Of a stretch of 64,000 nt of DNA, positions 5,501-52,923 are shown piece by piece. Source of the stretch: Methylosinus sporium (GTDB taxonomy: Bacteria > Pseudomonadota > Alphaproteobacteria > Rhizobiales > Beijerinckiaceae); the NCBI RefSeq assembly GCF_003113265.1, contig NZ_PUIV01000005.1, positions 62,001-126,000 on the forward strand. The letters run 5' to 3'. Each line of letters opens with the position of its first letter. The first letter of the stretch is position 1. The position numbers were made by a program, and so were the translations under genes. The notes under the pieces are model-generated. The model was not told the DNA's origin. It did not search any database and saw nothing but the letters and a program-made list of their open reading frames with translations.

Positions 5501-5839
5501 GTGACCCGGCTCGTCTATCGTGCTGCGGCTCGCCGCGCCCTGGCGGAAATCGCCGCCCATATCGCCCGCGAGAGCGGCAGTCGCTCCGTGGCGGAAAACT
5601 TCGTCGATAGGCTCGTCGCTTATTGTGAGAAGCTCGCATCCCTGCCGGGCCTACTCGGCCGGCCGAGGCCGGAGCTCGGCCGAGACTATCGCAGCATTCC
5701 CTTCGGAAATTATGTGATACTGCTGCGTTATGCGGATCAGGACGGCCCGCGCAGCCACCTATATGTCGTCCATATCATTCACGGCGCTCGCGACATCGAA
5801 GCTCTCCCTGAGCCATTCGACCGAGATCCCGAGGCTTGA
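5501..5839 (+). CDS. ParE/RelE-superfamily toxin
   Basis: The 112-residue protein starts with GTG one base after the antitoxin stop. It has the compact ParE/RelE fold signature: an N-terminal YRAAARRALAEIAAHIA helix, a central GRDYRSIPFGNYVILLRY beta segment and a C-terminal VVHIIHGARDIEAL strand. ParE members poison gyrase and RelE members cleave mRNA; the sequence alone does not settle which applies. The immediate antitoxin partner makes the TA assignment firm. Confidence 0.78.
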   Translation: MTRLVYRAAARRALAEIAAHIARESGSRSVAENFVDRLVAYCEKLASLPGLLGRPRPELGRDYRSIPFGNYVILLRYADQDGPRSHLYVVHIIHGARDIEALPEPFDRDPEA

Positions 5840-8056: not shown

Positions 8057-8392
8057 CTACTCTGGCTGAGCCAGCTCGTTCTTCGTCGAATCGTTCTGCT
8101 CATTGACGGGGATCGGCGTGCCGAGCGATTGCAGGAGCCGCTTGATCTCCGCGCTATTGTCGCCGGGCCGCTGCGCGGCCTCGTCCTGCCGCTTGAAGTG
8201 GCTCAGCACATGAGCGACCGCCTTGCGCGACGAATCGAAGGACAGCGAGCAACCTTCCTGGACGAATTCGCCGTCACGCAGGATTTCCCAACGCCACATA
8301 TAGTCGAGGTCGACCGTAAAGGCCTCGTAGCGCGCATCCGAATGAATCAGAATGCGCGACGCTTCGGTCGTCGGTTCCGCAGAATGCGCCAT
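8057..8392 (-). CDS. mmoD: sMMO regulatory/assembly protein MmoD
   Basis: MmoD is encoded between mmoZ and mmoC in all known sMMO operons. It binds the hydroxylase and inhibits it, and in Methylosinus it has been implicated in the copper switch. The 111-residue product contains the family-typical DLDYMWRWEILRDGEFVQEGCSL region. The ATG at 8392 is preceded by AAAGGAGAGG. A longer open frame upstream runs through the intercistronic hairpin and is not likely to be translated. Confidence 0.92.
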   Translation of the reverse strand: MAHSAEPTTEASRILIHSDARYEAFTVDLDYMWRWEILRDGEFVQEGCSLSFDSSRKAVAHVLSHFKRQDEAAQRPGDNSAEIKRLLQSLGTPIPVNEQNDSTKNELAQPE

Positions 8393-12499: not shown

Positions 12500-12515
12500 G
12501 GCAAGCCTCGTGCCA
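12500..12515 (-). promoter_or_regulatory. Sigma-54 (RpoN) promoter of mmoXYBZDC
   Basis: Read on the minus strand, 12515-12500 is TGGCACGAGGCTTGCC. This matches the -24/-12 consensus TGGCACG-N4-TTGCW except at the last base. Transcription should start near 12489, giving a leader of about 145 bases before mmoX. MmoR, a sigma-54 activator, is encoded just upstream. Control of mmoX by RpoN and MmoR is established in Methylosinus. Confidence 0.88.
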
Positions 12516-12703: not shown

Positions 12704-14386
12704 TCAGGCGCGTGGATCTTCGCGCGTTTCGGCGGCGCGGCGCGCATCGAATCCGAATGTCGGATCGCTCGGTGGAATATGCGTCACCGCGCATTCCACC
12801 GTCATCAGCGAGGAGGCCGTCGCGACCGCGTTGCGCAATGCGAGACGCGTGACGCGCACGGGATCGATGACGCCGGCGGCGAAGAGATCGCCGCAAGCGC
12901 CGCTGCGCATATCCATTCCCCAGAAATCGTCATTCGATCGCCGCAGCTCGAACAAAAATTCATCGGCGTCGACGCCGGCGTTGGCGGCGATGCGCCGTAT
13001 CGGCTCGTCGAGCGCGGCGCGCACGATGGCGACGCCATGGTCCTGATCGAGATTGTCGCCGCGCAGCTCTGCGAGAGCGGCGCGCGCGCGATAGAGTCCG
13101 ACGCCGCCGCCGGCGACTACGCCGTCATTCTGCGCTGAGCGGGCGGAATTGAGCGCATTCTCGATTCTCTGCATACGCTCCTTGATGACGATGTCCGACA
13201 AGCCGCCGGCGCGGATCGTCGCCATTCTGCCGGACAGGGCTTTTATGCGCGTCTGCAGATTTTGGAGCTCGTGGCGCTTGCCGCTCGGCGAGCCTTTGGA
13301 GCCGTCGCCTTCGACGATCCAATCGGCCTGACGTTTCGCCGAAGCGAGGCGATCGGCGATGACGGCGGCGTCGCCTTCGCCGCCGATGACCAGCGTATCG
13401 TCCTCGCGCACGACGACGCGTCGCGCGCGGCCGAGATGCTCGATCGTGACATTGGAAATATCTTCGCCGAACGCCTCCATGATCGCGCGGCCGCCGGTGA
13501 GCGCGGCGAGATCGAGAAGATATTCGTAGCGACTGTCGCCATAGCCCGGCCCCTTCACGGCGATGGAGCAGAGATTCTTGCGAATGTGATTGAGCAAGAG
13601 TCCGGGAAGCGCTTCCTCCGCTATGTTTTCCGCGACGACGAGCAGGCTGCCGCCGCGACGCCGCACGAGCTCGAGCGCTGGCACCAGCTCGGAAAATTCA
13701 TTGATGACGCGATCGTAGATGAGAATATAGGGATTCTCGAGCTCGGCGATTTTGCGCGCGCTGTCGGTCATGAAATAGGGCGAGCGATAGCCCTGTTCCC
13801 AATGCATTCCTTCGACGGATTCGATCTCGTCGGTCACGCCATTGCCGAGCTCGACATCGACGACGCCGCCGTCGCCGGCGATCTCCAGCGCTTCCGCGAC
13901 GATCTCGCCTATGCCTTCATCGCCGCCGGCCGCGAGAGTCGCGACATGAGCGAGCGAGCGCCGATCGTCGCAACGACGCGAACGGCGCAAAAGGTCGGCC
14001 TCGACCGCGCGCGCGGCGCGCTCCATGCCGAGCGAGACGTCGCGCGGATTCATGCCGGCGGCGAGCGCTTTTCGCGTTTCCGCGGCGACGCGGTGCGTCA
14101 GCACGACAGAGGTCGTCGAGCCGTCGCCCGCTTCTTTGGCGACCGTCGTCGCCATTTGGCGCACCAGCGTTATGCCGACGCTCTCCATGCGTCCGGCGGC
14201 TTCGACCGCCTGCGCTACTGTGGCGCCGTCCTTCGTCGCGACCGGCGGCAAGCCGGAGGCGCGATGCTCGATGACGACATTGCGGCCGCATGGCCCGAGC
14301 GTCACGCCGACGGCGTTTGCGAGAACGTCGACTCCATCGAGCAGCTTTTTGCGAACGGGGTCGCCGAAGCGAATATTCCTGGCCAC
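12704..14386 (-). CDS. mmoG: GroEL-like chaperonin MmoG
   Basis: MmoG is a GroEL homologue required for sMMO expression, thought to fold MmoR and/or the hydroxylase. The 560-residue product has GroEL landmarks: a VGVTLGPCGRNVVIE nucleotide-binding segment, KDGATVAQAVE, and GDGSTTSVVL. It starts with GTG at 14386, with GGAGGA eight bases upstream. It lacks the Gly-Gly-Met tail of housekeeping GroEL. It lies between mmoR and mmoX on the same strand, the arrangement described for Methylosinus. Confidence 0.94.
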   Translation of the reverse strand: MARNIRFGDPVRKKLLDGVDVLANAVGVTLGPCGRNVVIEHRASGLPPVATKDGATVAQAVEAAGRMESVGITLVRQMATTVAKEAGDGSTTSVVLTHRVAAETRKALAAGMNPRDVSLGMERAARAVEADLLRRSRRCDDRRSLAHVATLAAGGDEGIGEIVAEALEIAGDGGVVDVELGNGVTDEIESVEGMHWEQGYRSPYFMTDSARKIAELENPYILIYDRVINEFSELVPALELVRRRGGSLLVVAENIAEEALPGLLLNHIRKNLCSIAVKGPGYGDSRYEYLLDLAALTGGRAIMEAFGEDISNVTIEHLGRARRVVVREDDTLVIGGEGDAAVIADRLASAKRQADWIVEGDGSKGSPSGKRHELQNLQTRIKALSGRMATIRAGGLSDIVIKERMQRIENALNSARSAQNDGVVAGGGVGLYRARAALAELRGDNLDQDHGVAIVRAALDEPIRRIAANAGVDADEFLFELRRSNDDFWGMDMRSGACGDLFAAGVIDPVRVTRLALRNAVATASSLMTVECAVTHIPPSDPTFGFDARRAAETREDPRA

Positions 14387-14797: not shown

Positions 14798-16942
14798 TCA
14801 CCTCTTGGAGACGATGCGCCGATCGCTTCGCAAGCCGTAGCGCGCCATTTTATGGTAGAGCGTCGCTCTGGTGATGCCGAGGCTGCGCGCCGCTTTGGCG
14901 ATATTGCCTTTGCTCGAGGCGAGCGCATGTCGAACGGCGCGCGCCTCCCAATCGGAGAGGTCGAATCCGGCTTCGAGCTCGACTGTTTCGTCGACATTGG
15001 CGTCTTGTGACTCGGCGTCGGTCACGCGCTGATCGAAGTCGAGCTCCTGTAGAAAATCGATCGGAAGATCGTCGATCTCGATGACCGGGCCCTTGGCGAC
15101 GGCGATGCTGGAGCGCAGCACATTGCGCGCCTCGCGAATATTGCCGGGCCAGGGATGCTTGAAGAATATGCGCCAGACTTCATCGGAAAAGCGCAGATCT
15201 TCCGCCGATCCCAGCGCGTCTCGCTCGAGGCGGAACAATTGCGACAGCAGCCCGAGGCGATCGGGCCGCTCGCGCAGCGGCGGCAGCCATAGCTGCACGC
15301 CGTTGAGGCGATAGTAGAGATCGCGGCGAAACGCGCCTTTTTGCACCATCTCCTGCAGGCTGCGATTGGTGGCGGCGACGACGCGCACATCGACGCGGAT
15401 CGGCTTGCTGGAGCCGATCGGCACGACCTCGCTGGAGTCGAGCACGCGCAGCAGCGTCGCTTGCAGATCGGCGGCCATGTCGCCGATTTCGTCGAGGAAC
15501 AATATGCCTTTGTCGGCCTCGACGAATTTGCCGGATTTGCCCTTTGCGCGCGCGCCGGTGAAGCTGCCGCCCTCATAGCCGAACAATTCGCTCTCGATCA
15601 GCTCGCGCGGAATGGCGGCGCAATTGATGGCGACGAGCGGACGCTCCTTGCGCGGCCCGCCGGCGTGCAGGCGGCGCACCAGATAATCCTTGCCGACTCC
15701 GGACTCGCCGGTGATGAGGATCGGAATATTGCGCTCCTGCAAGCCGGCCGCCTTGCGCAGCGCCGTCTCCAGCACGCTGTCGCTCCAATCGCGCTCGGCG
15801 TCGGGCCCGCAGGGCGCGGCGTCGGCGCGGTCGGGCGCGCGGCGAGCCGATGAGGCGGCGCCGTCGCGCCTCGGACAGCGATGCGCTTCCGCATAGAGCG
15901 GACGGCCGTTGCGATCGGGGAGCGATAGGATGCGGCCGCCTTCATGCGCGGCGATCAGCGCCGGCAGATCGACGCCGAGCGCGGTCGCCGCGCGCGCGCC
16001 GACGAGCGCGGAATAGCCGCCGCCGAGCGCCTCGACGGCGGCGCGGTCGACGCCGCGAACATATCCGTCGGCGCCGACGAACACGCGGCCTTCGTCGGCG
16101 AAACGCGCATCCGCTTCGCCGATCGCGCGCAGGCGCAGCAGATAGCCGTCGGCGGCGAGGCGGTCGAACAGGCTCGCCTCCAGCATATGGCGCGCGATCT
16201 TCAGAAATCCGAGGGCGAGCTTGGCGGCGTCGCGCCGATCGGAGATCATGCCGAGGATCGCGCAGAGCCCGCCGTCGGGCGCGACGATGGGACAGCCGGC
16301 GGTCGCGAAGCGATGCAGCGCGCCGTTGAAATGCTCCTTGCCGTCGAAGGCGACGGGCTCGCGCAACAGGCTCGCCGTGCCGACGCCATTATTGCCGAGG
16401 CTGGCCTCGCTCCAATCGGCGCCGATGCGGCCGATCTGCGCGCCGCCGGCCGTTATGCGCGAGCCGGAGTCGAGCAGATGCACGACGGCGCCCGCCGGAT
16501 CGGCGAGCAGCAGCGCGACATTGGTCTCGTCGAGCAGCGTGCGCAGATCATAGACCAGCGCCGAAAGATGCCCGGCGACGCCGCCGAGCGAATTGCGGCG
16601 CCAGCCGTCGAGCTCCGAGGCGCCGCTCTCGAGGCGGCGCTGGCGCGGCGCGAATTCCGCGCCGGGGGGCAGAGCATGGTCGTCGACGCAGCGCGCCCAG
16701 GCTTCCGCGACCTGCGGGCGCACCCAATCGGCGCCGGCGGGCGCCTGGCCGGTCTGCTTCATCCAGTCCCAGGCGACGCCCGGCCGATCGACGCCGTAGA
16801 AGCCGGTCTCCTCGGCGCCGCGCAGAGCGGCGACGGAGGCGGCCGCGCGATCGAGCAAGGGGGATCTCATTGCCATATCGCTCAAAAGCGATCCTCCCGA
16901 ATTGTGACGTGTTGCGCCGGGCGTCCGCGCCGGGGCGCTCAT
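14798..16942 (-). CDS. mmoR: Sigma-54-dependent activator of sMMO genes, MmoR
   Basis: MmoR activates the sigma-54 promoter of mmoX. The 714-residue product has an AcoR-like N-terminal region with a GAF-type sensor (roughly residues 130-260). A central AAA+ domain carries Walker A GESGVGKD near residue 415 and Walker B LFLDEIGD near 475. A Fis-type helix-turn-helix at the C-terminus reads KGNIAKAARSLGITRATLYHK. The sigma-54 contact loop reads GSFTGA, not the usual GAFTGA. The ATG at 16942 has no clear ribosome-binding site and sits 10 bases after a strong hairpin. An in-frame ATG at 16876, preceded at 15 bases by GGGAGGA, is an alternative start. Confidence 0.93.
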   Translation of the reverse strand: MSAPARTPGATRHNSGGSLLSDMAMRSPLLDRAAASVAALRGAEETGFYGVDRPGVAWDWMKQTGQAPAGADWVRPQVAEAWARCVDDHALPPGAEFAPRQRRLESGASELDGWRRNSLGGVAGHLSALVYDLRTLLDETNVALLLADPAGAVVHLLDSGSRITAGGAQIGRIGADWSEASLGNNGVGTASLLREPVAFDGKEHFNGALHRFATAGCPIVAPDGGLCAILGMISDRRDAAKLALGFLKIARHMLEASLFDRLAADGYLLRLRAIGEADARFADEGRVFVGADGYVRGVDRAAVEALGGGYSALVGARAATALGVDLPALIAAHEGGRILSLPDRNGRPLYAEAHRCPRRDGAASSARRAPDRADAAPCGPDAERDWSDSVLETALRKAAGLQERNIPILITGESGVGKDYLVRRLHAGGPRKERPLVAINCAAIPRELIESELFGYEGGSFTGARAKGKSGKFVEADKGILFLDEIGDMAADLQATLLRVLDSSEVVPIGSSKPIRVDVRVVAATNRSLQEMVQKGAFRRDLYYRLNGVQLWLPPLRERPDRLGLLSQLFRLERDALGSAEDLRFSDEVWRIFFKHPWPGNIREARNVLRSSIAVAKGPVIEIDDLPIDFLQELDFDQRVTDAESQDANVDETVELEAGFDLSDWEARAVRHALASSKGNIAKAARSLGITRATLYHKMARYGLRSDRRIVSKR

Positions 16943-16952
16943 GCGATGGCCG

Positions 16953-16981
16953 GCGCCCGCCGTCGCTTCGACGGCGGGCGC
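16953..16981 (-). promoter_or_regulatory. Strong hairpin immediately upstream of mmoR
   Basis: A perfect 13-bp stem (16953-16965 with 16969-16981) with a three-base loop lies in the 65-bp gap between the DUF1097 gene and mmoR, ten bases from the mmoR ATG. No T-run follows on the minus strand. It may be an incomplete terminator or attenuator for read-through from the copper-related genes upstream, or a structure that limits mmoR translation initiation. Confidence 0.55.
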
Positions 16982-17007
16982 GCTTTCGACGTCGTAGCGG
17001 TCGGCGC

Positions 17008-17550
17008 TCAGCTGCGCGCGGCCGAGGGGGCTTTCTGGCCGGGCAGGGGCAGCTTCTGCAGCGCTTCGGCGAGCTGTTCGGCCGCATAGCCGAAGACGGC
17101 GCCCACGATCAGCGACAAGGCCGCCAGCAGCGCCGGATTATTCGGCGCGAGCGCGAGCAGGTCGTCGGCGTGCGTCGTCGCGAGCAGCGTCGCATAGGCG
17201 GCGAGGGAGACGGGCCATTCGGCGAGCGCCGGCAGCTTGGAGGCGAGCACGAGCAGGACGAGCGTCACCGCCACGGCGATGGCCGTCCAGGCGGCGACGC
17301 CGATCGTCTCGCCATAGGGCAGGCGCGTGGCGGCGACGAGCGCCACAGCGGCGAGCAGGACGCCGCACAGATGATGGGGGATCGACTTCTTGAGCCCCTC
17401 GAGCTTGCCGCCGAATTGCATATAGCCGGCCCAGCCGATGAGCGCGGCGAAGAGCTGCGCGCCATAGGATGCGGCGGGACCGAGCGCCAGAAATGCGGCG
17501 AGACCGCCGAGAGCGCCGACGCTCACGGCTCTAAAGGATGTGATGCTCAT
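17008..17550 (-). CDS. DUF1097-like inner-membrane protein
   Basis: This 180-residue protein has about five or six hydrophobic helices and the FGGKLEGLKKSIPHHLCGVLL region typical of the DUF1097/YcdZ family, whose function is unknown. The start ATG has GGAGG nearby. It lies 105 nt downstream of the DUF2946-like gene and 65 bp upstream of mmoR on the same strand, so a common transcript is possible. A role in transport is plausible, but nothing in the sequence names a substrate. Confidence 0.75.
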   Translation of the reverse strand: MSITSFRAVSVGALGGLAAFLALGPAASYGAQLFAALIGWAGYMQFGGKLEGLKKSIPHHLCGVLLAAVALVAATRLPYGETIGVAAWTAIAVAVTLVLLVLASKLPALAEWPVSLAAYATLLATTHADDLLALAPNNPALLAALSLIVGAVFGYAAEQLAEALQKLPLPGQKAPSAARS

Positions 17551-17655
17551 GACAATAGCCTCCAGCTGCGCGCGCGATCGAGGATCGGCGCAGATCGCAT
17601 GAATCCCTCGACGGCGCAGTGGTCCGTCGATCTTCGAAAAGGAGAGTGGGGGAGT

Positions 17656-18063
17656 TCAGGCGAGGCGCGCTGGGGGCGCGCGTGGGAACAGCGGCCGCAG
17701 CTCGGGCGCGGCGACGACGGCGTCGACGACATAGAGCGGCGTCGGCGCGCCGGAGAACATTTCGAGCGGAAGGATCGCGATGAGGACGCGTTCTTCCTCG
17801 CCGTCTATCGCCGAGCTGCAATGGAGAATGCAGCAGGGGCCGACATGATGGCTCTCGATCGGGGAAGAGTCGTTTTGCGAAGCGCGGGCGGAGTCGGCCT
17901 TGAAAGTCGCGCAGACGACGCCGGAGAATTGCCCGCTGTCGGCGGTGGCTCCGGCGGCGAAGCCGACGCCGACCATTTGCAGCAGGAACAGTAGCGCCGC
18001 GACCGAGCTCAGGGCCGCTCGCATGACGCTCGAATGTGTCCGGCCGAGGATTCGCAAGGTCAT
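17656..18063 (-). CDS. DUF2946-like secreted Cys/His protein with C-terminal RAPP (possible copper-sensing leader)
   Basis: The 135-residue protein starts with a hydrophobic signal segment (residues 15-37). It then has a metal-ligand-rich stretch, HHVGPCCILHC (C77, C78, C82), and ends with PRAPP (RAPP at 128-131) four residues from the stop. Small DUF2946 proteins with a Cys motif and a proline-rich end (CutF of Rhodobacter, CruR of Bordetella) are copper-responsive upstream ORFs that control downstream translation. RAPP is the arrest motif of ApdA/ApdP peptides. It follows the Sco1-like gene by 14 bp and precedes the DUF1097 gene by 105 bp. Family assignment is by pattern only; the start could also be the ATG at 18024. 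Confidence 0.65.
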   Translation of the reverse strand: MTLRILGRTHSSVMRAALSSVAALLFLLQMVGVGFAAGATADSGQFSGVVCATFKADSARASQNDSSPIESHHVGPCCILHCSSAIDGEEERVLIAILPLEMFSGAPTPLYVVDAVVAAPELRPLFPRAPPARLA

Positions 18064-18077
18064 ATGCTCTGAAGCGT

Positions 18078-19466
18078 TCAGATTTCGACGGTACGAGCGG
18101 CGCCTGCGAGCGTCAAGCGAGGCTCCCTCGCACACATGCGGCATGTTGTCGCGAGCGTGCGCCCACGCCTTCGTCTGCGCTCCGTTATGCGCCGCGCCCC
18201 GTTCCGCTTTTGTGGCGCACGCGCGCGGCGGATGAAATCCTTCAGCGCTTCGGCGGCGTCGCCGCCGCGATCCATGAAGGAGGCGACGCCGGACATGACG
18301 CCTTCGCGATCGACGAAATAGACGAGCGTGGTGTGGTCGATCGTATAGTCGCCGCCGTCGAGAGGAACCTTGCGATGATAGACGCGAAAGGCGCGCGCGG
18401 CGCGGTCGATCTCCTCCGGCGCGCCGCGCAGGGCGATGATGCGTCGTCCGAAGGAGGAGACGAAATCGGCGAGGCTTTCGGCGGTGTCGCGCTCGGGATC
18501 GAGAGTGACGAAGAGAATGTCGAAGCCGGCGCCGGAGGGATCCGCCTCATTGGCCGCGCGCGCGACCTCGAGCATCGTGCTGGGGCAGACTTCCGGACAA
18601 TGCGCGAAGCCGAAGAAGATGGCGTAGGGCCGGCCGAGCATGGTCGTTTCGTCGACGACGGCGCCATTGGTCGCGGTCAGCCTGAAGGCGGGCGAAAAGC
18701 CGCGCGCGGCCGCTTGCGTGTGCGGCGCGAGGCGCGGCGCGGCGGCGCTCGCCAGAACGATGGCGGCGGCGATGGCGATCCACCATCGGCGCGCGCCGAG
18801 CGCGGCGGGAAGGCGGCGTTCGCCGCCCGGCGCGGCGCGGGCGCCCGCCGGGCGGCTGGAGCGAGCGGAGCTCTCGGGCGGGATGGAGACCGATGCTCCG
18901 CTCGAACGACGAAGGCCGCGGCGGCGAATGAGGCGGCGAAAGCGCGCTGCGAGCCGCGCGCCGGTTCTCGGCGCGCGGCGCAGCGCTTCGACGAATGTGG
19001 TGCGTATGCGCGGCTCCACCTCTATGCCGCGCAGGCCGTCGGCGAGGCGCTCGACGGCGCTCTCCTTTTCCGCCGGCGTCGAATGACGTCCGATCTCGAG
19101 CCGGCGTCCGGCGGTCCTGATCTCGACCTGCAGATAGCGACGCGCGCGATCGAGACGCCGCTCGATGACGAGATCGGCGGCCTTGACGCGCCTTTGGTCG
19201 ATGAGCCGGCCGCGCACATAATGCGCGACGCAGACGACGCCATTCTCCACCGTCACGCGCTCGACGATTTCGCCGCGCTGCGCGGGCGCGTCGCCGGCGA
19301 GGCGGCCGCAGAAGGATGCGAGGCCGTTGGCGGCGCTCGTCGCCGCGCGCATCAAGAGCGAAGCGAATGTGCGCGGCGCGGCTGGCGCGGCGTCGGCGGC
19401 GGGATGGGCGGATCGCGGTTTCGTCGGCGCGGGCTGCGCGCAGGGCTCCGTCACGCAGGTCTCCAT
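18078..19466 (-). CDS. SCO1/SenC-family copper protein with long N-terminal extension
   Basis: Residues 255-420 form a Sco1/SenC thioredoxin-like domain with the copper ligands CPEVC (C290, C294) and a distal His in DYTIDHTTL (H378). Such proteins deliver copper to cytochrome oxidase or act as thiol reductases. The preceding 225 residues are unusual. They hold a charged domain I cannot assign and a linker. A single membrane helix at about 229-245 then anchors the Sco domain. Normal Sco proteins are about 200 residues; this one is 462. I prefer the ATG at 19466 over a TTG at 19493. A copper chaperone gene is divergent upstream. Confidence 0.8.
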   Translation of the reverse strand: METCVTEPCAQPAPTKPRSAHPAADAAPAAPRTFASLLMRAATSAANGLASFCGRLAGDAPAQRGEIVERVTVENGVVCVAHYVRGRLIDQRRVKAADLVIERRLDRARRYLQVEIRTAGRRLEIGRHSTPAEKESAVERLADGLRGIEVEPRIRTTFVEALRRAPRTGARLAARFRRLIRRRGLRRSSGASVSIPPESSARSSRPAGARAAPGGERRLPAALGARRWWIAIAAAIVLASAAAPRLAPHTQAAARGFSPAFRLTATNGAVVDETTMLGRPYAIFFGFAHCPEVCPSTMLEVARAANEADPSGAGFDILFVTLDPERDTAESLADFVSSFGRRIIALRGAPEEIDRAARAFRVYHRKVPLDGGDYTIDHTTLVYFVDREGVMSGVASFMDRGGDAAEALKDFIRRARAPQKRNGARRITERRRRRGRTLATTCRMCAREPRLTLAGAARTVEI

Positions 19467-19776
19467 TTCGCGGCGTCGTGTCGCGGCTCTCAATGTCGCG
19501 AGGTCTTATCGAAAACAGCAATTGCGCATATAGGTCAACGCGAAGGCGAATGATGTGGATGCGACCGGACGTCGCGTGCAGAAAGTGAACGACCATGCGT
19601 TCGATCGTGATCGTCGCAATGCGCGCGAAAGCGATACGTCTGTGCAGATTTCGATCCGAAATTCGCCGCTCGGCGCCTTTTCGCGCTATGTTTGTCGCTT
19701 CATGTGTCTCTCTGTGCGCTGGCGCCGAAGTTGCGGACCTCGCGCCTAGGGGCATGTTCAACAATCGGCTCGAGAC

Positions 19777-20274
19777 ATGATCACAGGCTCGCCGCGACGG
19801 CGCGACCTTCTATCCTCGATAGGATATGGAAAATTTTGCCTATTGCGGGCGCTCACGCTCCCGCTGCTCCTTTTTGCGACAGTGGCGCTCTCCGCGCCCG
19901 CCGCGATAGAGGTGGAGCGCGCCTGGTGCGCGACGCCCCCCAAAGGGGTGAGGATCGGCGCCTGCTATCTCGCCCTGCGCAACGACGGCAAGATCGAGGA
20001 TCGGCTGCTCGGCGTGGAGGCGGAGGCGGCCGGTCGGGTCGAATTGCATGTGACCAAGGTGGCCGACGGCGTCGGACGGATGCGGCCGCTCGCCGATGGG
20101 GTGGACCTCCCGCCCGAGTCGGTCGTCGATTTCCGCGAAAAGGGCTATCATCTCATGCTCGTCGATCTGCGCGGGCCCCTCGCCGAGGGCGAGACCATGC
20201 GCGGGACGCTGCGCTTCGAGCGCGCAGGGCCGCGGCCGGTGCTGTTCCACATCGAGCGGCCGGGCGCGCACTGA
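19777..20274 (+). CDS. PCu(A)C-type periplasmic copper chaperone
   Basis: The 165-residue protein has an N-terminal membrane/signal segment (about residues 20-42). A PCu(A)C domain follows with the ligand pattern H91-X10-M102-X22-H125-X-M127, the Cu(I) site of the family. These chaperones load CuA sites of cytochrome oxidase together with Sco proteins, which fits the divergent sco1-like gene. The 310-bp region between the two starts (19467-19776) should hold both promoters; I see no clear operator there. Confidence 0.85.
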   Translation: MITGSPRRRDLLSSIGYGKFCLLRALTLPLLLFATVALSAPAAIEVERAWCATPPKGVRIGACYLALRNDGKIEDRLLGVEAEAAGRVELHVTKVADGVGRMRPLADGVDLPPESVVDFREKGYHLMLVDLRGPLAEGETMRGTLRFERAGPRPVLFHIERPGAH

Positions 20275-20908: not shown

Positions 20909-23900
20909 ATGAGCGCGGATTTCCCGCGGATATGTCACGCAATGAATGAGTTGAACCCCAGTTTCGCGCAGAGCTCGCGTCTCGACGAGAATGCGGAGAT
21001 CGCCGAGGACGAGGCGCGCAACGCGACGGCGAGGGCCGTGATGCGCGGCGCGGTCATGCCGCATCTGCTGCGCGACGAATTGCTCTGCGAGATTTTCGCG
21101 GCCCGCGTCGCGGCGACGCCCAATGGGCTCGCCATGGCGACTTTGGAGCGGCGGTTCACCTATCGCGAGGTGGACGCGCAGGCCTCGGCCATCGCCTGCG
21201 GCCTTTCGGCGCGAGACATCGGGCCCGGCGACGTCGTCGGCCTTTGGGGCGCGCGCGGGCCGGAGCTGCTGATCGCCCAGATCGCCATCGCCAAGACCGG
21301 CGCCGCCTGGCTGCCCTTCGACGCCGACGCGCCGGTCGACCGCATCGCGGTCTGCCTCGCCGACGCGGGCGCCAAGGCGCTGCTGACTTCGGCCGCTTTC
21401 GCCGCCAAGGCCGCCCCGTCGGTCTCGGTCGAGACGCTGGTCGATGAAGAGATCGCGGTCGCCGGCGGCCTCTGCCCCGATCCGCGTGGGCTCGGCGCGA
21501 CGGGCGACCATGCGGCCTATCTCATCTACACCTCCGGCTCGACGGGGACGCCCAAGGGCATTGTCGTCACCGCGCGCAACATCTGTCATTATCTGCGCTC
21601 GGCCAATGAGATCTATCGGATTTCCGCCTCCGATGTGGTGTTCCAGGGCGCGTCGGTCGCCTTCGACCTCTCCATGGAGGAGATCTGGATTCCCTATCTC
21701 GCCGGCGCGTCGCTCTTTGTCGCCACGCCGCAGATCATCGGCGAGACCGAGGCGCTGCCCGATATTCTGGAGGAAGCCGGCGTCACCGTGCTCGACACTG
21801 TGCCGACGCTGCTCGCCGCCATGCCGCGCGACGTCGCGACGCTGAGGAAGATCGTGCTCGGCGGCGAGGCCTGCCCGCCTTCGGTGGCGGAACGCTGGGC
21901 GCGCGCCGGCCGCACCATTTTCAACAGCTACGGTCCCACCGAGGCGACGGTCGTCGCCACCGTCTCCGAGGTCTGGCCCAATGAGACGGTGACGATCGGC
22001 AAGCCGATCCCCAATTACAGCTGCTATGTCGTCGATGAAAATCTGGCGCTGCTGCCGCCGGGCGCGGAGGGCGAGCTGCTGATCGGCGGCCCGGGCGTCG
22101 CCCAAGGGTATCTGCGCCGCGACGAGCTGACCGCCGAGAAGTTCATTGCCAATCCTTTCCCCTCGGACGGCTCCGATCCGATCCTCTATCGCTCCGGCGA
22201 CGCGGTGATTCTGGACGAGAACGGCGATCTGCATTTTCGCGGCCGCATTGACGATCAGGTGAAGATCAGGGGCTTCCGCGTCGAGCTGGGCGAGATCGAA
22301 TCCGTGCTCTCGCGCCTCGACCATATTCGTCAGGCGGCGGTGGTTCTGCGCAATGAGAATGGGTTGGACGAGCTCGTCGCCTTTCTCGTCGGCGCGACGG
22401 CCGTGTCGCCGGATCCGCGCGACCTGCGCGCCAAGCTGCGCGAGTTTCTGCCCTCCTATATGGTTCCGGGCCGGTTCGAGGTCGTGACCTCGCTGCCGCG
22501 GCTCTCCTCCGGCAAGGTGGACCGCAAGGCGCTGAAGCGGGCGCCGCTGACCGCCCCGCTGATCGACACAGAGGCGCAGGAGGAGCCGCGTACCCAGACG
22601 GAGGCCGCGCTGCTCGACGCCGCCAAGCGCGTGTTGCCGCCAGGCGCCATCCCCTTCGACGCCGATTTCTTCACTGATCTCGGCGGCCATTCGCTGCTCG
22701 CCGCGCGCTTTGTGTCGGTGGTGCGCGAGACGGCGCATCTCGCCTCGATCACGCTGCAGGACCTCTATTCCGAACGCAATCTGCGCGCCCTCGCCGCTCA
22801 TCTCGACGGCAAGGCGTCGCTCGCCGGGCCGCCGCGCGATCTCTCCTTCACGCCGCCGCCGCTGCTGCGGCGTTTCCTCTGCGGTCTCGCCCAGGCGGCG
22901 GCGCTGCCTTTCATCCTCGCTTTCGTCACCTCGCAGTGGCTCGGCGTCTTCGTCTCCTATCAGCTGCTCACTTCGCCGGACGCGAACATCCTCGAGGAAG
23001 TGGCGGCGCTGCTCGGCGTCTATATGTGCGTCAACATCGCCACTGTGGCGGTGTCGATCCTCGGCAAATGGCTGGTGATCGGCCGCACCAAGCCGGGGCG
23101 TTACCCGCTCTGGGGCGTCTATTACTACCGCTGGTGGTTGGCGCAGCGCCTCATTGGCCTCACCCACGCCAAATGGTTCCAGTGCTCGCCCTTGATGCGC
23201 CTCTATCTTTCCGCGCTCGGCGCGAAGATCGGCGCAGACGCCATCATCGGCGAATTGGACGTCGGCGCGATCGATCTCGTCAGCATCGGCGATGGCGCGA
23301 GCCTCGGCTCCAAGCTGAAGCTCGCCAACGCCCGCGTCGTCGGCAATGAGCTGATCATCGGGACGATCGACATTGGCGCGGACGCCTATGTCGGCACCTC
23401 CTGTGTGATCGAGGAGAATGTCGTCATCGGCGAAGGCGCGGCGCTCGAGGATCTGACCTCGGTTCCCGCCGGCTCGCATATCGGCGCCTATGAGATTTGG
23501 GACGGCTCGCCGGCGCGCTACAAGGGCGATGTCGACGCCCGCTCGCTCGATCCGCAATCGACGGCCTCCACGCCGCAACGGCTCACCATGGGCTTTATGT
23601 TCACCGTGCTGGTGCTGGCGCTGCCGCCGCTCGGCCTGCTGCCGATCTTCCCGGCCTTTTGGGTGTTCGACCGTTTCGACAATTGGCTCGGCATAACGGA
23701 TGTCGATCACGCCCTCTATCTCGCCGCCATCCCCGCGTTCGCCTGGCCGACGGCTTTCGTTCTGGTGCTCGTCACCGTGGCCTTCATTGTGGCCTTCCGC
23801 TGGATCGTGCTGCCGCGCGTCTCGGAGGGGACCTATTCGGTGTGGTCGGGCTTCTATCTGCGCAAATGGGCGGTGGCGCTGGCGACAGAAGTGACGCTGG

Positions 23901-25042
23901 AGACGCTCTCCTCGCTGTTCGCCACGCTCTACATGCGGACCTGGTACCGGCTGATGGGCGCCAAGATCGGCAAGGATTCGGAGATTTCGACCAATCTCTC
24001 CGGCCGCTACGATCTCGTTGAGATCGGCGAGAAATGCTTCATCGCCGATGAGGTGGTGCTCGGCGACGAGGATATGCGCCGCGGCTGGATGTATCTGAAG
24101 AAGGTGAAGACCGGCGCGCGCGTCTTCGTCGGCAATGACGCCGTGGTGCCGCCGGGCTCCGAGATTCCCAATGGCGCGCTGATCGGCATCAAATCCAAGC
24201 CGCCGGCCAATAGCGAACTCTCCGAGGGCGACACCTGGTTCGGCTCGCCGCCGATGAAGCTGCCGGTGCGCCAGACCTTTGACGGCGGCGGCGCCGCCTG
24301 GACCTATCAGCCGCCCTTCTGGAAAAAAGCGGCGCGCGCCGTCTATGAGGCGATCAACGTCTCGTTGCCGACCATGCTGTTCATCACTTTCGGCACATGG
24401 GCGGTGGAGAGCTTCGGCCAGAAGCTCATCGACGGCGATTATTTGTCGGTGTTCTGGCTGTTCGTGCTGTCATCGACGCTGATCTCGCTCGGCATGACGC
24501 TGGTCGTGGTGGCGGTGAAATGGCTGACCATGGGGCGCTATGAGCCGCAGGTGAAGCCCATGTGGTCCTTCTGGGCCATGCGCACCGAGGCCTGCGCCGT
24601 GCTCTATTGGGGCCTCGCCGGCAAAATATTGCTCGAGCATTTGCGCGGCACGCCCTTCCTGCCCTGGATGCTGCGCCTGTTCGGCTCGAAATTCGGCAAG
24701 GGCGTGTTCATGGACATGACCGACATCACCGAATTCGACTGCGTGAGCGTCGGCGACTATGCCGCCCTCAATCAGGTGGCGGCGCTACAGACGCATCTCT
24801 ACGAGGATCGCGTCATGAAGGTCGGCCGCGTCGAGATCGGCCGCGGCGTCACCGTCGGCGCCGGCTCCACCGTGCTCTACGACACCCATGTCGGCGATTT
24901 CGCGCGGCTCGGCCCGCTCACCGTGGTGATGAAGGGCGAGAAGATTCCGGCGCATTCCGAATGGATCGGCGCGCCGGCCGAGCCGGCCGCGACGGCGCAA
25001 GTCGCGGTCGCGCCCGAGCGCGCGGCCAGCAAAGCGGCGTGA
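20909..25042 (+). CDS. Pls/PosA-like single-module NRPS with acyltransferase-like C-terminus
   Basis: The 1377-residue protein has an adenylation domain (about 55-555; core motifs YTSGSTGTPKGI, YRSGDAV, GRIDDQVKIRGFRVELGEIE). A peptidyl-carrier domain follows with the attachment site in DLGGHSLLAA (Ser near 594). The long C-terminal half has about six membrane helices interleaved with three left-handed beta-helix (hexapeptide repeat) segments. No condensation or thioesterase domain is present. This is the architecture of epsilon-poly-L-lysine synthetase (Pls) and its relatives, which make homopolymers of amino acids. The amino acid used cannot be read reliably. An in-frame ATG at 20942 is an alternative start. 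No tailoring genes flank it. Confidence 0.85.
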   Translation: MSADFPRICHAMNELNPSFAQSSRLDENAEIAEDEARNATARAVMRGAVMPHLLRDELLCEIFAARVAATPNGLAMATLERRFTYREVDAQASAIACGLSARDIGPGDVVGLWGARGPELLIAQIAIAKTGAAWLPFDADAPVDRIAVCLADAGAKALLTSAAFAAKAAPSVSVETLVDEEIAVAGGLCPDPRGLGATGDHAAYLIYTSGSTGTPKGIVVTARNICHYLRSANEIYRISASDVVFQGASVAFDLSMEEIWIPYLAGASLFVATPQIIGETEALPDILEEAGVTVLDTVPTLLAAMPRDVATLRKIVLGGEACPPSVAERWARAGRTIFNSYGPTEATVVATVSEVWPNETVTIGKPIPNYSCYVVDENLALLPPGAEGELLIGGPGVAQGYLRRDELTAEKFIANPFPSDGSDPILYRSGDAVILDENGDLHFRGRIDDQVKIRGFRVELGEIESVLSRLDHIRQAAVVLRNENGLDELVAFLVGATAVSPDPRDLRAKLREFLPSYMVPGRFEVVTSLPRLSSGKVDRKALKRAPLTAPLIDTEAQEEPRTQTEAALLDAAKRVLPPGAIPFDADFFTDLGGHSLLAARFVSVVRETAHLASITLQDLYSERNLRALAAHLDGKASLAGPPRDLSFTPPPLLRRFLCGLAQAAALPFILAFVTSQWLGVFVSYQLLTSPDANILEEVAALLGVYMCVNIATVAVSILGKWLVIGRTKPGRYPLWGVYYYRWWLAQRLIGLTHAKWFQCSPLMRLYLSALGAKIGADAIIGELDVGAIDLVSIGDGASLGSKLKLANARVVGNELIIGTIDIGADAYVGTSCVIEENVVIGEGAALEDLTSVPAGSHIGAYEIWDGSPARYKGDVDARSLDPQSTASTPQRLTMGFMFTVLVLALPPLGLLPIFPAFWVFDRFDNWLGITDVDHALYLAAIPAFAWPTAFVLVLVTVAFIVAFRWIVLPRVSEGTYSVWSGFYLRKWAVALATEVTLETLSSLFATLYMRTWYRLMGAKIGKDSEISTNLSGRYDLVEIGEKCFIADEVVLGDEDMRRGWMYLKKVKTGARVFVGNDAVVPPGSEIPNGALIGIKSKPPANSELSEGDTWFGSPPMKLPVRQTFDGGGAAWTYQPPFWKKAARAVYEAINVSLPTMLFITFGTWAVESFGQKLIDGDYLSVFWLFVLSSTLISLGMTLVVVAVKWLTMGRYEPQVKPMWSFWAMRTEACAVLYWGLAGKILLEHLRGTPFLPWMLRLFGSKFGKGVFMDMTDITEFDCVSVGDYAALNQVAALQTHLYEDRVMKVGRVEIGRGVTVGAGSTVLYDTHVGDFARLGPLTVVMKGEKIPAHSEWIGAPAEPAATAQVAVAPERAASKAA

Positions 25043-47976: not shown

Positions 47977-48251
47977 CGAGCATCTATAGGCGTTCTCGTG
48001 GATCTTCTGAAGCGCCTACGGCGAGGGGGCGCGGATTTACATATCGTCCAATTCACGCGACCTCCTGGCCGGAACGAGACCGGCAGGACCGCCCGGCAGC
48101 CTCATGAGGCCCTTTCTGGCGCCGCTTCTCGCTCACCCGACCCGATTGTCCCCGCCCGTTGACTTGCCGTAACGCTGCGTTCTAGGAATCCCTCCCACGC
48201 GGATTTTCGTCGGCCCTCGCCGATCGATCGCGCGGCGCCGGATCGTTCCCT

Positions 48252-48641
48252 ATGGCGGGTTTGCGCGGCAGAGGTTTTTCGTGGCGAGCGACGATCGTTC
48301 CGATCGCCGTTCTCGCGGCCTTGCTGCAAGCGCTTCTGCTCTTCGCCGCGATCGGCCCCGCCCATGCGCATCACGCCCCGCCGGGCCTCGCGCTCGCCTC
48401 CGCCGATTGCGGCGGCGCTGCGCATCCGGGCGAGGCGCCGGGGCCGCATTGCCCGCTGCATCCGCAATGCTGCTCGCTCGGAATGGCGAGCCTCGCGCCG
48501 CTGATCGGCGCCGTCCTCTCCATGCTGCTTCCCGTCGCTCCCGGCGAGACGATGACGCTCGGCGTCGCGGCCGAGCGCGGCGCGCATGGTCCCGCGCCGG
48601 CTCGTCCCTGGTCGTCGCGAGCGCCGCCCTTTCTCGGCTGA
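48252..48641 (+). CDS. DUF2946-like secreted Cys/His protein with C-terminal RAPP
   Basis: The 129-residue protein has a signal-like segment (residues 12-38, ending near PAHAHHA) and a Cys/His-rich centre (PHCPLHPQCCS with C67, C73, C74). It ends SSRAPPFLG, with RAPP at 123-126, three residues from the stop. It resembles the second DUF2946-like protein of this window (17656-18063) in size, layout and end. It lies 118 bp upstream of the ECF sigma gene, which has no clear ribosome-binding site of its own. A role as a copper-responsive leader is inferred from the DUF2946 proteins CutF and CruR and from RAPP arrest peptides. Confidence 0.65.
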   Translation: MAGLRGRGFSWRATIVPIAVLAALLQALLLFAAIGPAHAHHAPPGLALASADCGGAAHPGEAPGPHCPLHPQCCSLGMASLAPLIGAVLSMLLPVAPGETMTLGVAAERGAHGPAPARPWSSRAPPFLG

Positions 48642-50394: not shown

Positions 50395-52923
50395 ATGGCG
50401 GGTCGGGAAAAACGCAACGGTTTCAGAACGGGCGAAGCAAGGATCGGTTCGACGCTGGCGATCGCCGCGATCGGCGCTCTGACGCTGGGTTCGGGAGTTT
50501 CGGACTCGCCGGCGCAGGCGGCTATTTCGCCGCAGGAGCGCTCCGGCCTCGTGCAGAACTATCGCATCCCTTCCGGCCCGCTGCCGGGCGCCTTGAACGC
50601 TTTCGCCGATCTCAACGGCTTGCAGATTCTCTATGACGCCGACGTCACCGGGCGATTGAGGACGGCGGGGCTCGACGGCGATTTCGCGGTGGACGAAGGG
50701 CTCGACCGTCTGCTGTCGGGAACGGGATTGTCGTGGCGCTTCGCCGCCAAGGGCAAGACCGTGTCGATCATACTGGCGCAGAACGATCGCGGCGTGACGA
50801 ATGACGCGATCGGTGCGGAGTCGCTGCCGGCGATCGACATCGGCGCCGACAGGGGGAAGGTGAAGCCCGCGGCGGCGGGCGCGCAGGGGCCGGGAGACAG
50901 ATCGACCGGATACAGGCCCAGCGCGACCGCGCCGACGACCTTGAAGACCGATGCTCCGCTGATGCAGACGCCAATGTCCATTCAGGCCGTGACGCGTCAG
51001 ACGATGGATGACCAGCAAGCGATCACTTTCAGAGACGCTCTCGTCTCCAATGTCAGCGGCGTCACTCTCACGCCGAATTTTTTCGACAATGTGGTCAAGG
51101 TTCGCGGCTTCCAGGCCAACACTTTCAAGAACGGATTGCTGGAGTTTCGCTTTCGGCATTTCGATACGACCAATCTGCAGTCGCTCGACGTCGTGAAAGG
51201 CCCGGCGGCCATGCTCTTCGGCCGTATGGAGCCGGGCGGTCTCGTCAATATGGTGGTCAAGCGCCCGCTGGAGACGCCCTATTATTCGGTGGAGCAGCAG
51301 ATCGGCTCCTACGGGCTGACGCGCACGATCGTCGACGCGACCGGGCCCGTCACGGACGACAAATCCATACTCTATCGTTTCAACGGCGAATTCTTCCGCT
51401 CCGGCTCCTATCGTGACGTCATCAACGATCGCAACGTCTTTCTGGCGCCGACGATCACGCTGCATCCGATCGAACAGTTCCGGATGAACATCGATTTCGA
51501 ATACGACAATAGAACCTGGGTCGACGATTTTCCGATCTATCCGGCCGTCGCCGGAGGCCCGGCCAATATTCCGCGCAGCCGCTATCTCTCGCCGGCCTTC
51601 ATCACCGCGCGATTTCCCGACAATATGGACAAGAAGCGCATCGCCTTTGACTGGACTTATGATTTCCTGCCGGGATGGAGCCTGACGAACCGTCTCAGCT
51701 ACTCCAATGCGGGATATCAGACCAATAATGGATTCCCGTTCGGATTCAATCAGGCGACTGGCGTTCTCTCTCGCTTTCTGACGTATCTCCCGGGCTACAC
51801 CGATAAGAATTTCGCGACGAATCTCGATCTGAAGGGAAAGTTCACGACTGGCCCGCTCGAGCATTCGATCCTGGCCGGCTTCGATTATTTCAACTATTTC
51901 ACGCCGATGTATGCGGGCCTGTCCGTTCTCGGCAGTTCGGTCAACATCTACGCGCCCAACTATTGGCAGTTCGAGAATCTCGCCCAGGCGCAGACATACA
52001 CCGTCCTCGGGCAGAAATGGACCGGCGTTTATGCGCAGGATATGATCTCCTTCCTCGACGACACGGTTCATGTGCTGCTCGGCGGGCGATACGACTGGGC
52101 GGAGACATGGCAGAGCCGCTACCGCACCTCCGCCGCACTCGCGAACGCGACCTATTGGGCGAGCTACGACAAAGGCTTCAGCCCGCGAGTCGCGGTCCTC
52201 TATCAGCCTTGGCCCTGGTTGTCGGTCTATGGCAATTTCACGCAGTCGCTGGGCGCGAACCAGGTCACGACGCAAGGTCTGACCTTGCAGCCGCAGAGAG
52301 GCGAGCAATTCGAGGGCGGCCTCAAGGCCGAATTCTTCGACAAGCGGCTGCTGCTCACAATGGCCTATTTCGACATCACCAAGACCAACGTCCCGGTGAC
52401 GGACCCGAGCAATGCGGCCAACACGCTCACCATCGGCAAGGCGCGCAGCCAGGGCTTCGAGCTCGATCTGACCGGGCGCATCGACGACAATTGGAGCGTC
52501 ATCGCCAATTACACCCATAATGATGTGCGAACCATCATCGGCACCGCCACCGATCCCGTCACCGCTTATAATCGCCAGATCGCGGTCGCCGGCAGCATTC
52601 TGCCGGGCAGCCCGCGCAACTATGGCAATCTGTGGGTCAAATATGACGCCGACGGCGATTTGCGCGGATTGAGCGTCGCGGGAGGCGTCAATGTGAGCTC
52701 GGACCAGCTCGGCGACCCGGCGAATTCCTTCGTCCTGCCGAGCTATGCGCTGCTCAACGGCATGATCGCCTATACGACGACGGTCGCCGGTTTCAACGTC
52801 ACCGCGCAACTGAACGTCAAAAACATCACCGACACGGTCTATTACCCTTCGGCGGGCAGCCGCACGACGATCATGACCGGGGCGCCGCGTACCTTCTTGG
52901 GCTCGCTGCGCGTGGAGTTCTGA
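50395..52923 (+). CDS. TonB-dependent receptor with STN signalling domain (FecA/MbnT-like)
   Basis: The 842-residue outer-membrane receptor has a signal peptide and an STN domain (IPSGPLPGALNAFADLNG, about residues 55-125) that contacts FecR. The plug domain (SIQAVTRQTMDDQQAITFRDA; DVVKGPAAMLFGRMEPGGLVN) and a 22-strand-type barrel follow, ending in the C-terminal Phe of SLRVEF. It belongs to the siderophore-receptor group. MbnP/MbnH genes downstream suggest that the ligand is a copper complex such as methanobactin, not an iron siderophore. That is inference from context. Confidence 0.9.
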   Translation: MAGREKRNGFRTGEARIGSTLAIAAIGALTLGSGVSDSPAQAAISPQERSGLVQNYRIPSGPLPGALNAFADLNGLQILYDADVTGRLRTAGLDGDFAVDEGLDRLLSGTGLSWRFAAKGKTVSIILAQNDRGVTNDAIGAESLPAIDIGADRGKVKPAAAGAQGPGDRSTGYRPSATAPTTLKTDAPLMQTPMSIQAVTRQTMDDQQAITFRDALVSNVSGVTLTPNFFDNVVKVRGFQANTFKNGLLEFRFRHFDTTNLQSLDVVKGPAAMLFGRMEPGGLVNMVVKRPLETPYYSVEQQIGSYGLTRTIVDATGPVTDDKSILYRFNGEFFRSGSYRDVINDRNVFLAPTITLHPIEQFRMNIDFEYDNRTWVDDFPIYPAVAGGPANIPRSRYLSPAFITARFPDNMDKKRIAFDWTYDFLPGWSLTNRLSYSNAGYQTNNGFPFGFNQATGVLSRFLTYLPGYTDKNFATNLDLKGKFTTGPLEHSILAGFDYFNYFTPMYAGLSVLGSSVNIYAPNYWQFENLAQAQTYTVLGQKWTGVYAQDMISFLDDTVHVLLGGRYDWAETWQSRYRTSAALANATYWASYDKGFSPRVAVLYQPWPWLSVYGNFTQSLGANQVTTQGLTLQPQRGEQFEGGLKAEFFDKRLLLTMAYFDITKTNVPVTDPSNAANTLTIGKARSQGFELDLTGRIDDNWSVIANYTHNDVRTIIGTATDPVTAYNRQIAVAGSILPGSPRNYGNLWVKYDADGDLRGLSVAGGVNVSSDQLGDPANSFVLPSYALLNGMIAYTTTVAGFNVTAQLNVKNITDTVYYPSAGSRTTIMTGAPRTFLGSLRVEF

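Follow-up and report, generated by a model that had tools for sequence, protein, structure and literature searches.

The leader ORF and its genomic neighborhood

The window, i.e., the whole stretch of DNA analyzed here, comprises 64,000 nt of Methylosinus sporium (NZ_PUIV01000005.1), and all coordinates are positions in that stretch (Table 1). The first-pass annotation had described, on the minus strand at 18063–17656, an ORF with a signal segment, a CCxxxC/His cluster and RAPP four residues from its stop, positioned 105 nt upstream of a gene that was followed by mmoR on the same strand. The ORF and its position were confirmed, and the intervening gene was identified as one for a DUF1097 membrane protein. 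Downstream of this ORF, referred to as the leader hereafter, the order is DUF1097, mmoR, a small ORF, mmoG and mmoX. Read from ATG 18063, the leader has 135 aa; in the ORF listing, the frame begins at ATG 18144 (162 aa), a start that would lie within the 3' end of the SCO1 ORF. The start common to the relatives is TTG 18057, as found by comparison in nine of ten genomes and by reading in the tenth (G089). The start of mmoR is probably TTG 16885, which lies behind GGGAGG, rather than ATG 16942.

Table 1. Features of the leader–DUF1097–mmoR region in the window.
Feature	Position	Strand	Remarks
PCu(A)C copper chaperone	19777..20274	+	divergent from SCO1
SCO1/SenC copper-chaperone-like gene	18078..19493	-	directly upstream of the leader
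DUF2946-type leader ORF	17656..18057	-	133 aa from TTG 18057; ATG 18063 and ATG 18144 also in frame
CCILHC codons, putative metal site	17818..17835	-	Cys at -51, -50 and -46 from the R of RAPP
RAPP codons CGC GCG CCC CCA, candidate arrest site	17671..17682	-	four residues before the stop
Leader–DUF1097 intergenic region	17551..17655	-	105 nt
Hairpin directly 5' of the DUF1097 Shine-Dalgarno	17567..17592	-	kept in the 10-genome alignment
DUF1097 Shine-Dalgarno GGAGG	17559..17563	-	predicted partner of RAPP-region codons in most relatives, weakly in the window
DUF1097 membrane-protein gene	17008..17550	-	between leader and mmoR in 15/15 leader genomes
Hairpin in the DUF1097–mmoR gap	16952..16983	-	no U-tract by reading; same place in relatives
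mmoR, sigma-54-dependent activator	14798..16885	-	likely TTG 16885; ORF open from ATG 16942
mmoG, GroEL-like	12704..14386	-	follows mmoR and a small ORF
Sigma-54 promoter pattern upstream of mmoX	12501..12515	-	exact match; pattern scan

The leader begins with a hydrophobic stretch (by reading) and ends with RAPP, ARLA and the stop codon, and the distance from the last Cys of its CCILHC motif to RAPP is exactly 45 residues. Its designation as DUF2946-like in the first-pass annotation held with regard to family likeness, as the match covered nearly the whole DUF2946 profile (PF11162; positions 6–117 of 117) and eight of the ten members of the orthologue alignment, that of the window included, matched at E ≤ 0.01 (best, 2.5e-5). 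The score of 23.1 bits, however, fell 0.6 bits below the Pfam gathering cut-off of 23.7 bits. Antisense ORFs also cover the leader stretch, e.g., 16870–17994 (+).

The SCO1 ORF ends 14 nt before ATG 18063 on the same strand; given this closeness, the leader may not be the first gene of its unit. A simple consensus scan of the minus strand from 16800 to 19900 revealed no sigma-70-like site, and the pattern scan gave no sigma-54-like match in the vicinity of the leader. The sigma-54 pattern at 12501..12515 is presumably the MmoR-dependent promoter of mmoX. Several other properties of the neighborhood were noticed. The N-terminal part of the SCO1 ORF is long and matches DUF2244 weakly, below the cut-off, and its C-terminal tail is rich in arginine; the AlphaFold model of the DUF1097 protein has a pLDDT of 47. 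At 20909–25042 (+), a 1377-aa ORF reads as an adenylation-domain protein with repeated acyltransferase-like parts; it is found in the same place in four relatives with 94.8–96.2% identity.

Conservation and distribution of the leader

A search of 397 genomes of the family (E ≤ 1e-150) identified mmoR in 21 genomes from five genera. DUF1097 was directly upstream of mmoR in 15 of the 21, eight of the window's genus and seven of genus g18, and every mmoR genome of the two genera (8/8 and 7/7) keeps the order leader–DUF1097–mmoR. The named leader genomes are Methylosinus sp. Sm6, Methylocystaceae FeB_33 and Methylocystis sp. Sn-Cys, each of which was counted once. Conservation of the arrangement in genomes of the Methylosinus/Methylocystis type, which had been suggested as a check, was found in 15 of 15. 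In G089, mmoX runs the opposite way, yet the leader and DUF1097 still precede mmoR. The gap between leader and DUF1097 is 102–117 nt in the other nine of ten genomes (with the start chosen for G121). In each of the 14 remaining leader genomes, too, tblastn placed a SCO1 match ahead of the leader, and a PCu(A)C match was found in all other leader loci of the first batch examined except that of G089.

Conservation of RAPP and of the Cys residues had been named beforehand as the test on which the proposal could fail. All 15 leaders end with RAPP plus four residues and all 15 contain the Cys pair, the form of which varies by reading: 11 leaders have CCxxxC, two have just CC (G089 and G501) and two have CxxC (G512 and G558). 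Among ten aligned leaders, identity to the window leader drops to 36%, with H73, G75, C77, C78, L80, H81 and PRAPP invariant, and Cys residues are at -51, -50 and -46 in nine of the ten leaders measured. The dN/dS values were 0.18–0.49 in all seven pairs, and the leader is under purifying selection. Of the 2296 frames of at least 80 codons in 22 stretches chosen around mmoR and DUF2946 matches, 20 had RAPP within 12 residues of the end and 19 of these 20 had spaced Cys. Chance occurrence of RAPP in the leader was ruled out by this association together with its conservation in all 15 genomes.

Two other RAPP-ended frames were rejected as leaders. That in L074 (G040) is on the strand opposite to mmoR, lies over its start and is without the Cys motif, and that before DUF1097 in G419 was attributed to chance, with no tblastn match to the leader and no spaced Cys by reading. 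The leaders in L118, L119, L121 and L072, in which the Cys motif drifts and RAPP is fixed, constitute a natural series for metal-binding tests.

The copper genes next to the leader also permit a reading in which the product of the ORF is a stable copper protein of the periplasm and a partner of SCO1 and PCuAC, and RAPP is a family relic that regulates nothing. The position of SCO1 directly upstream on the same strand, with PCuAC adjoining, is consistent with this reading. Against it stands the constancy of RAPP, which keeps its distance of four residues to the stop in every one of the 15 leaders despite the drop in identity. RAPP-like motifs are, moreover, generally avoided in bacterial proteomes (PMC12992588), and the codons around RAPP are constrained at the RNA level in most relatives (see below). 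We consider such a periplasmic role highly improbable.

In the six other mmoR genomes of the family (G009, G040, G076, G116, G436, and G450), mmoX and mmoY precede mmoR on its strand, and no leader or DUF1097 match was found in the stretches read, which included one of the two mmoR copies of G436. When G009, G040, G076, and G116 were searched over their whole genomes, no relative of the leader reached E ≤ 0.01; a DUF1097 gene is located elsewhere in the genomes of G076 and G116. The particulate methane monooxygenase (pMMO) was found in all ten leader genomes tested and in none of these four genomes without the leader (0/4). In the two genomes of the window's genus that are without mmoR, pMMO is present and DUF1097 is absent. 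Thus, as far as tested, the leader, DUF1097 and mmoR occur together in genomes with both monooxygenases. This pattern separates one clade from the others and may reflect a single evolutionary event. A Skermanella genome (G126), found outside the family search, contains mmoR together with a pMMO-like B subunit but no leader. In Skermanella aerolata (L015), the genes form a mmoX-mmoY-mmoR-mmoG cluster, and the pMMO-like B subunit is elsewhere in the genome. To our knowledge, Skermanella is not a recognized methanotrophic genus.

The gap between DUF1097 and mmoR contains a hairpin of 9–14 pairs in nine of ten genomes (in three with one internal mismatch), and its sequence is unrelated in several of them; none was clear in G089. 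Against shuffles, the folding energy of the gap had z scores of -0.2 to -1.1 in half of the ten genomes and of -2.1 to -4.1 in the other half. The hairpin could end, process or stabilize the message. Doubt about the reach of the leader into mmoR arises mainly because this hairpin separates DUF1097 from mmoR, and it underlies the possibility of a genuine copper-responsive arrest leader whose control is restricted to DUF1097, with mmoR having its own promoter past the hairpin and the linkage being inherited. That the hairpin is often rebuilt with unrelated sequence, that mmoR is preceded by a strong GGGAGG/GGAGG of its own and begins with a conserved TTG, and that a DUF1097 relative in G419 stands without mmoR all agree with such restricted control. 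The fixed position of leader and DUF1097 before mmoR in 15 of 15 genomes, including G089 with its reversed mmoX, and the absence of DUF1097 from the two mmoR-less genomes of the genus argue against it, as do the lack of a U-tract in the hairpin (by reading) and gap folding that is not clearly below that of shuffles in half of the ten genomes. Control of DUF1097 alone is in our estimation unlikely, if not markedly so, and any control by the leader would probably reach past the hairpin into mmoR.

Codons around RAPP and the Shine-Dalgarno sequence of DUF1097

The Shine-Dalgarno sequence of DUF1097 is paired, in several of the minimum-energy folds, with codons at or immediately before RAPP, and the 10-genome consensus fold includes an outer stem from the codons immediately before RAPP. 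The hairpin directly 5' of the Shine-Dalgarno (helix 5) was paired in 93% of cells, with no change on both sides in the 10-genome covariation analysis. For the pairing test, the last 14 leader codons were replaced by synonymous draws (100 each; 60 each for the controls), in which the codon usage of seven window genes was used for all genomes, and the cost of opening the Shine-Dalgarno was the measure. The resulting z scores for masking were 0.2 (window), 2.1, 3.8, 5.7, 4.8, 3.8, 2.5, -0.3, -0.1, and 1.9 for the first ten genomes and 1.5, 1.8, 3.3, 1.2, and 1.8 for five added genomes. The observed cost exceeded the null strongly (z of 2.5 to 5.7) in G122, G120, G042, G119, G123, and G512, the first four of which gave the four highest values and are close relatives, hence not independent. 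The scores were weaker (1.2 to 2.1) in six genomes (Sn-Cys, G089, G466, G501, G533, and G558) and around zero in three (the window's own, G121, and G124).

The control pair DUF1097>mmoR gave z scores of -0.8, -0.6, -0.9, 2.0, 1.1, 2.5, -0.7, -0.1, and -0.2 in nine genomes, and mmoX>mmoY gave -0.8 in the only genome where the pattern located that pair. Seven other leaders of the window's genome also entered the test, one of which was without a Shine-Dalgarno; the scores of the remaining six were 2.1, -0.8, -0.1, 0.4, 0.3, and 0.1. The value of 2.1 belongs to C11b, which does not end in RAPP, and the other five, all below 0.5, indicate no codon bias for Shine-Dalgarno pairing.

The choice of codons in RAPP itself was also distinctive. 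RAPP is encoded by CGC GCG CCT CCA in G122, G120, G042, and G119, and its Pro codons are CCT CCA in five of the ten mmo leaders, while these two codons together account for 13 of the 187 Pro codons counted over seven genes of the window. CCG encodes the first Pro of RAPP in one of the ten mmo leaders versus ten of the 11 other leaders of the window's genome; the five added leaders contributed one further CCG (G501). These results suggest that, in most relatives, the codons at or just before RAPP were chosen to permit predicted pairing with the Shine-Dalgarno of DUF1097, a feature that is new here. The window's own sequence does not support the pairing by itself, which is extended to it by kinship. 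The opening costs calculated for the window were 4.3 (free) and 3.9 kcal (stalled), and 4.7 and 5.6 kcal in the longest context; a comparison of free and stalled energies alone is no test, because pairing mostly declines when 5' sequence is removed, and the null of synonymous codons serves as the test instead.

If a ribosome stalls at RAPP, its footprint should include the pairing codons at and immediately before this motif, which would provide a possible on-switch. Alternatively, Rho-dependent termination similar to that of CruR could take place between leader and DUF1097, with the Shine-Dalgarno pairing being incidental. It has the precedent of CruR (PMC9426467) and fits the window's own sequence, in which a pairing signal is missing. 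The C/G ratio of the leader is indeed raised (1.33, the highest among 14 ORFs compared), but no sign of a rut site emerged from the scan for C>G windows, in which the best 78-nt window of the leader (2.16) was not unusual and was matched or surpassed by those of SCO1, mmoX and a TonB-receptor-like ORF. Termination by Rho would also leave the codon bias in the relatives unexplained, and we regard a mechanism by Rho with merely incidental pairing as rather unlikely.

Kinship with CruR and CutF and a possible copper input to mmoR

CruR and CutF are copper-responsive upstream ORFs of the DUF2946 family (PMC9426467, PMC9973294). The kinship with them that the first-pass annotation had proposed was right; RAPP, however, is itself a hallmark of CruR (PMC9426467), so that the RAPP and DUF2946 clues are partly one. 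Like CruR (BP2923 of Bordetella pertussis), the window leader has RAPP a few residues before its stop, 45 residues between Cys motif and RAPP and a long gap to the next gene (162 nt for CruR and 105 nt here), and its hydrophobic N-terminus may be of the export type. CruR differs in that its Cys motif is CXXC rather than CCxxxC, that it is the first gene of its operon, a place that the window leader, with SCO1 close upstream, may not have, and that it acts by Rho, for which the window leader has no rut sign. Its targets also are genes for copper transport and homeostasis, in contrast to DUF1097 and a sigma-54 activator of methane oxidation (PMC9426467).

With CutF of Rhodobacter capsulatus, the leader shares the CxxxC motif, the form of a short and putatively exported protein, PP near the C-terminus and an RNA structure that masks the next Shine-Dalgarno, which is predicted here for most relatives. 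Signal peptide apart, the leader has all the features of CutF-like proteins (length below 150 aa, PP among the last 15 residues, CxxxC and a following gene at most 1000 nt away on its strand; PMC9973294), with 133–135 aa, a RAPPARLA end, CILHC and DUF1097 at 105 nt. Unlike the leader, CutF precedes the oxidase gene cutO, which is raised by copper, and the word RAPP is absent from the available CutF text (PMC9973294). For the leader, the masking strand is predicted to coincide with the candidate arrest codons or immediately precede them. SecM and ApdA/ApdP likewise have an arrest motif near the C-terminus that is set to free a downstream gene (PMC10951233), but they sense protein localization, not copper (PMC10951233, PMC9426467, PMC9973294). 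RAPP, spacing and context in the leader fit CruR, while CxxxC and the predicted Shine-Dalgarno masking fit CutF. By kinship and proposed function, the leader most likely belongs with the CruR/CutF class; it is not filed as a strict CruR because its score lies below the Pfam cut-off and its Cys motif has the CxxxC rather than the CXXC form.

Extending the behavior of these relatives to the leader, we propose, with moderate confidence, that it acts on the DUF1097-mmoR unit as a copper-responsive arrest leader of the DUF2946 (CruR/CutF) class. The ribosome translating the leader would pause at RAPP and cover the codons at and just before it, which in most relatives are the predicted partner of the DUF1097 Shine-Dalgarno. 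The Shine-Dalgarno so freed would allow expression of DUF1097 and, by read-through or coupling, of mmoR. Copper bound at the CC-LHC site of the nascent chain would release the ribosome, after which the Shine-Dalgarno would be masked, or Rho would gain access as in CruR, and less MmoR would be made. Under this scheme, the soluble methane monooxygenase (sMMO) would be switched on in the absence of copper and off in its presence, which is the sign of the known switch.

This copper sign is taken from CruR; that of CutF is the opposite. With the CutF sign, copper would strengthen the arrest and raise DUF1097 and mmoR, as might be expected from the CxxxC motif and from an RNA element that masks the downstream Shine-Dalgarno, both of which are CutF features (PMC9973294). 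RAPP and the 45-residue spacing are, on the other hand, features of CruR, and copper represses the mmo genes, with log2 changes of -8 to -15 (PMC12811070), so that an activator raised by copper would oppose the switch. This repression accords with the CruR sign, under which copper relieves the arrest and expression of the genes downstream falls, and we judge the CutF sign to be quite unlikely here.

The route by which copper reaches the sMMO genes is still debated, and a conserved leader before DUF1097-mmoR bears on this question. Methanobactin and MmoD have been named as parts of the route, as have MmoQ/MmoS in Methylococcus (PMC7994243). In Methylocella silvestris and Methyloferula stellata, MmoR is without a receiver domain and no kinase gene is beside it (PMC5874634). 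Among ten MmoR proteins scanned, no sensor domain in the N-terminal part exceeded the cut-off; the MmoR of G089 had sub-threshold PAS matches, and a sensor may lie inside MmoR. A difference in GAF domains between the MmoRs of methanotrophs reported previously (PMC5874634) was not reproduced with Pfam (0/10 MmoR) and was dropped.

The fixed place of the leader before mmoR in methanotrophs with both monooxygenases suggests an unrecognized copper input to the switch. More specifically, though only tentatively, the leader could be the missing copper input of the sMMO switch in Methylosinus/Methylocystis, in which the nascent peptide senses copper, the arrest codons double as the masking strand, and the supply of MmoR and of DUF1097 is set post-transcriptionally, ahead of the action of MmoR/MmoG at mmoX. 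If this is true, the CruR/CutF class extends from copper homeostasis genes to the metabolic switch that chooses the methane monooxygenase. No paper in the literature searched, which was largely open-access, links the CruR/CutF family to mmoR. The text on CruR, the only paper retrieved for methanotrophs together with DUF2946, mentions no DUF1097, monooxygenase or mmo, and methanotrophs appear in it once, in the reference list (PMC9426467). The text on CutF mentions no DUF1097, monooxygenase, Methylosinus or Methylocystis (PMC9973294), methane does not occur in PMC12992588, and neither DUF2946 nor an upstream ORF is mentioned in the main text of the paper that presents start and end maps for Methylosinus sporium 5 (PMC12403871).

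In addition to the leader before mmoR, the window's genome contains other DUF2946 leaders. Eleven DUF2946 matches, the window leader included, were found at E ≤ 10, and a further search added one. Nine of the eleven other leaders read end in RAPP (C11b and C22 do not), and their Cys pair is mostly between -44 and -56. They resemble the mmoR leader in having RAPP near the stop and the Cys pair and differ in the next gene, which, where known, is that of a TonB receptor, an ECF sigma factor or ExbB. By Pfam, the genes after ten of these leaders included three for ECF sigma factors, four for TonB receptors (one after C11b), one for ExbB and one without a family; next to the tenth leader, the closest paralogue C11c, is a GGDEF protein gene on the other strand. 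Among the leaders read with a same-strand next gene of known family, the mmoR leader alone is not before TonB-linked uptake genes. The closest paralogue (44% identity; L086, about 8700–8340, minus strand) has no gene found directly after it on the same strand and, by reading, a terminator-like hairpin with a T-run about 300 nt further on.

A second leader of the DUF2946 type is in the window at 48186–48641 (+), a locus unlisted in the Pfam profile search of the genome. It ends in RAPPFLG and lies 118 nt before an ECF-sigma-like ORF, which is followed, by reading, by FecR-like and TonB-receptor-like ORFs (50395–52923). Two more RAPP-ended frames with spaced Cys, ending at 8167 (+) in L077 and at 5529 (+) in L083, are beside other leaders. 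At least nine RAPP-ended DUF2946 leaders besides that of mmoR are present in the genome, in ten stretches (L077–L086). Most of them precede genes for TonB receptors, ECF sigma factors or ExbB, and they constitute a large leader-linked uptake set.
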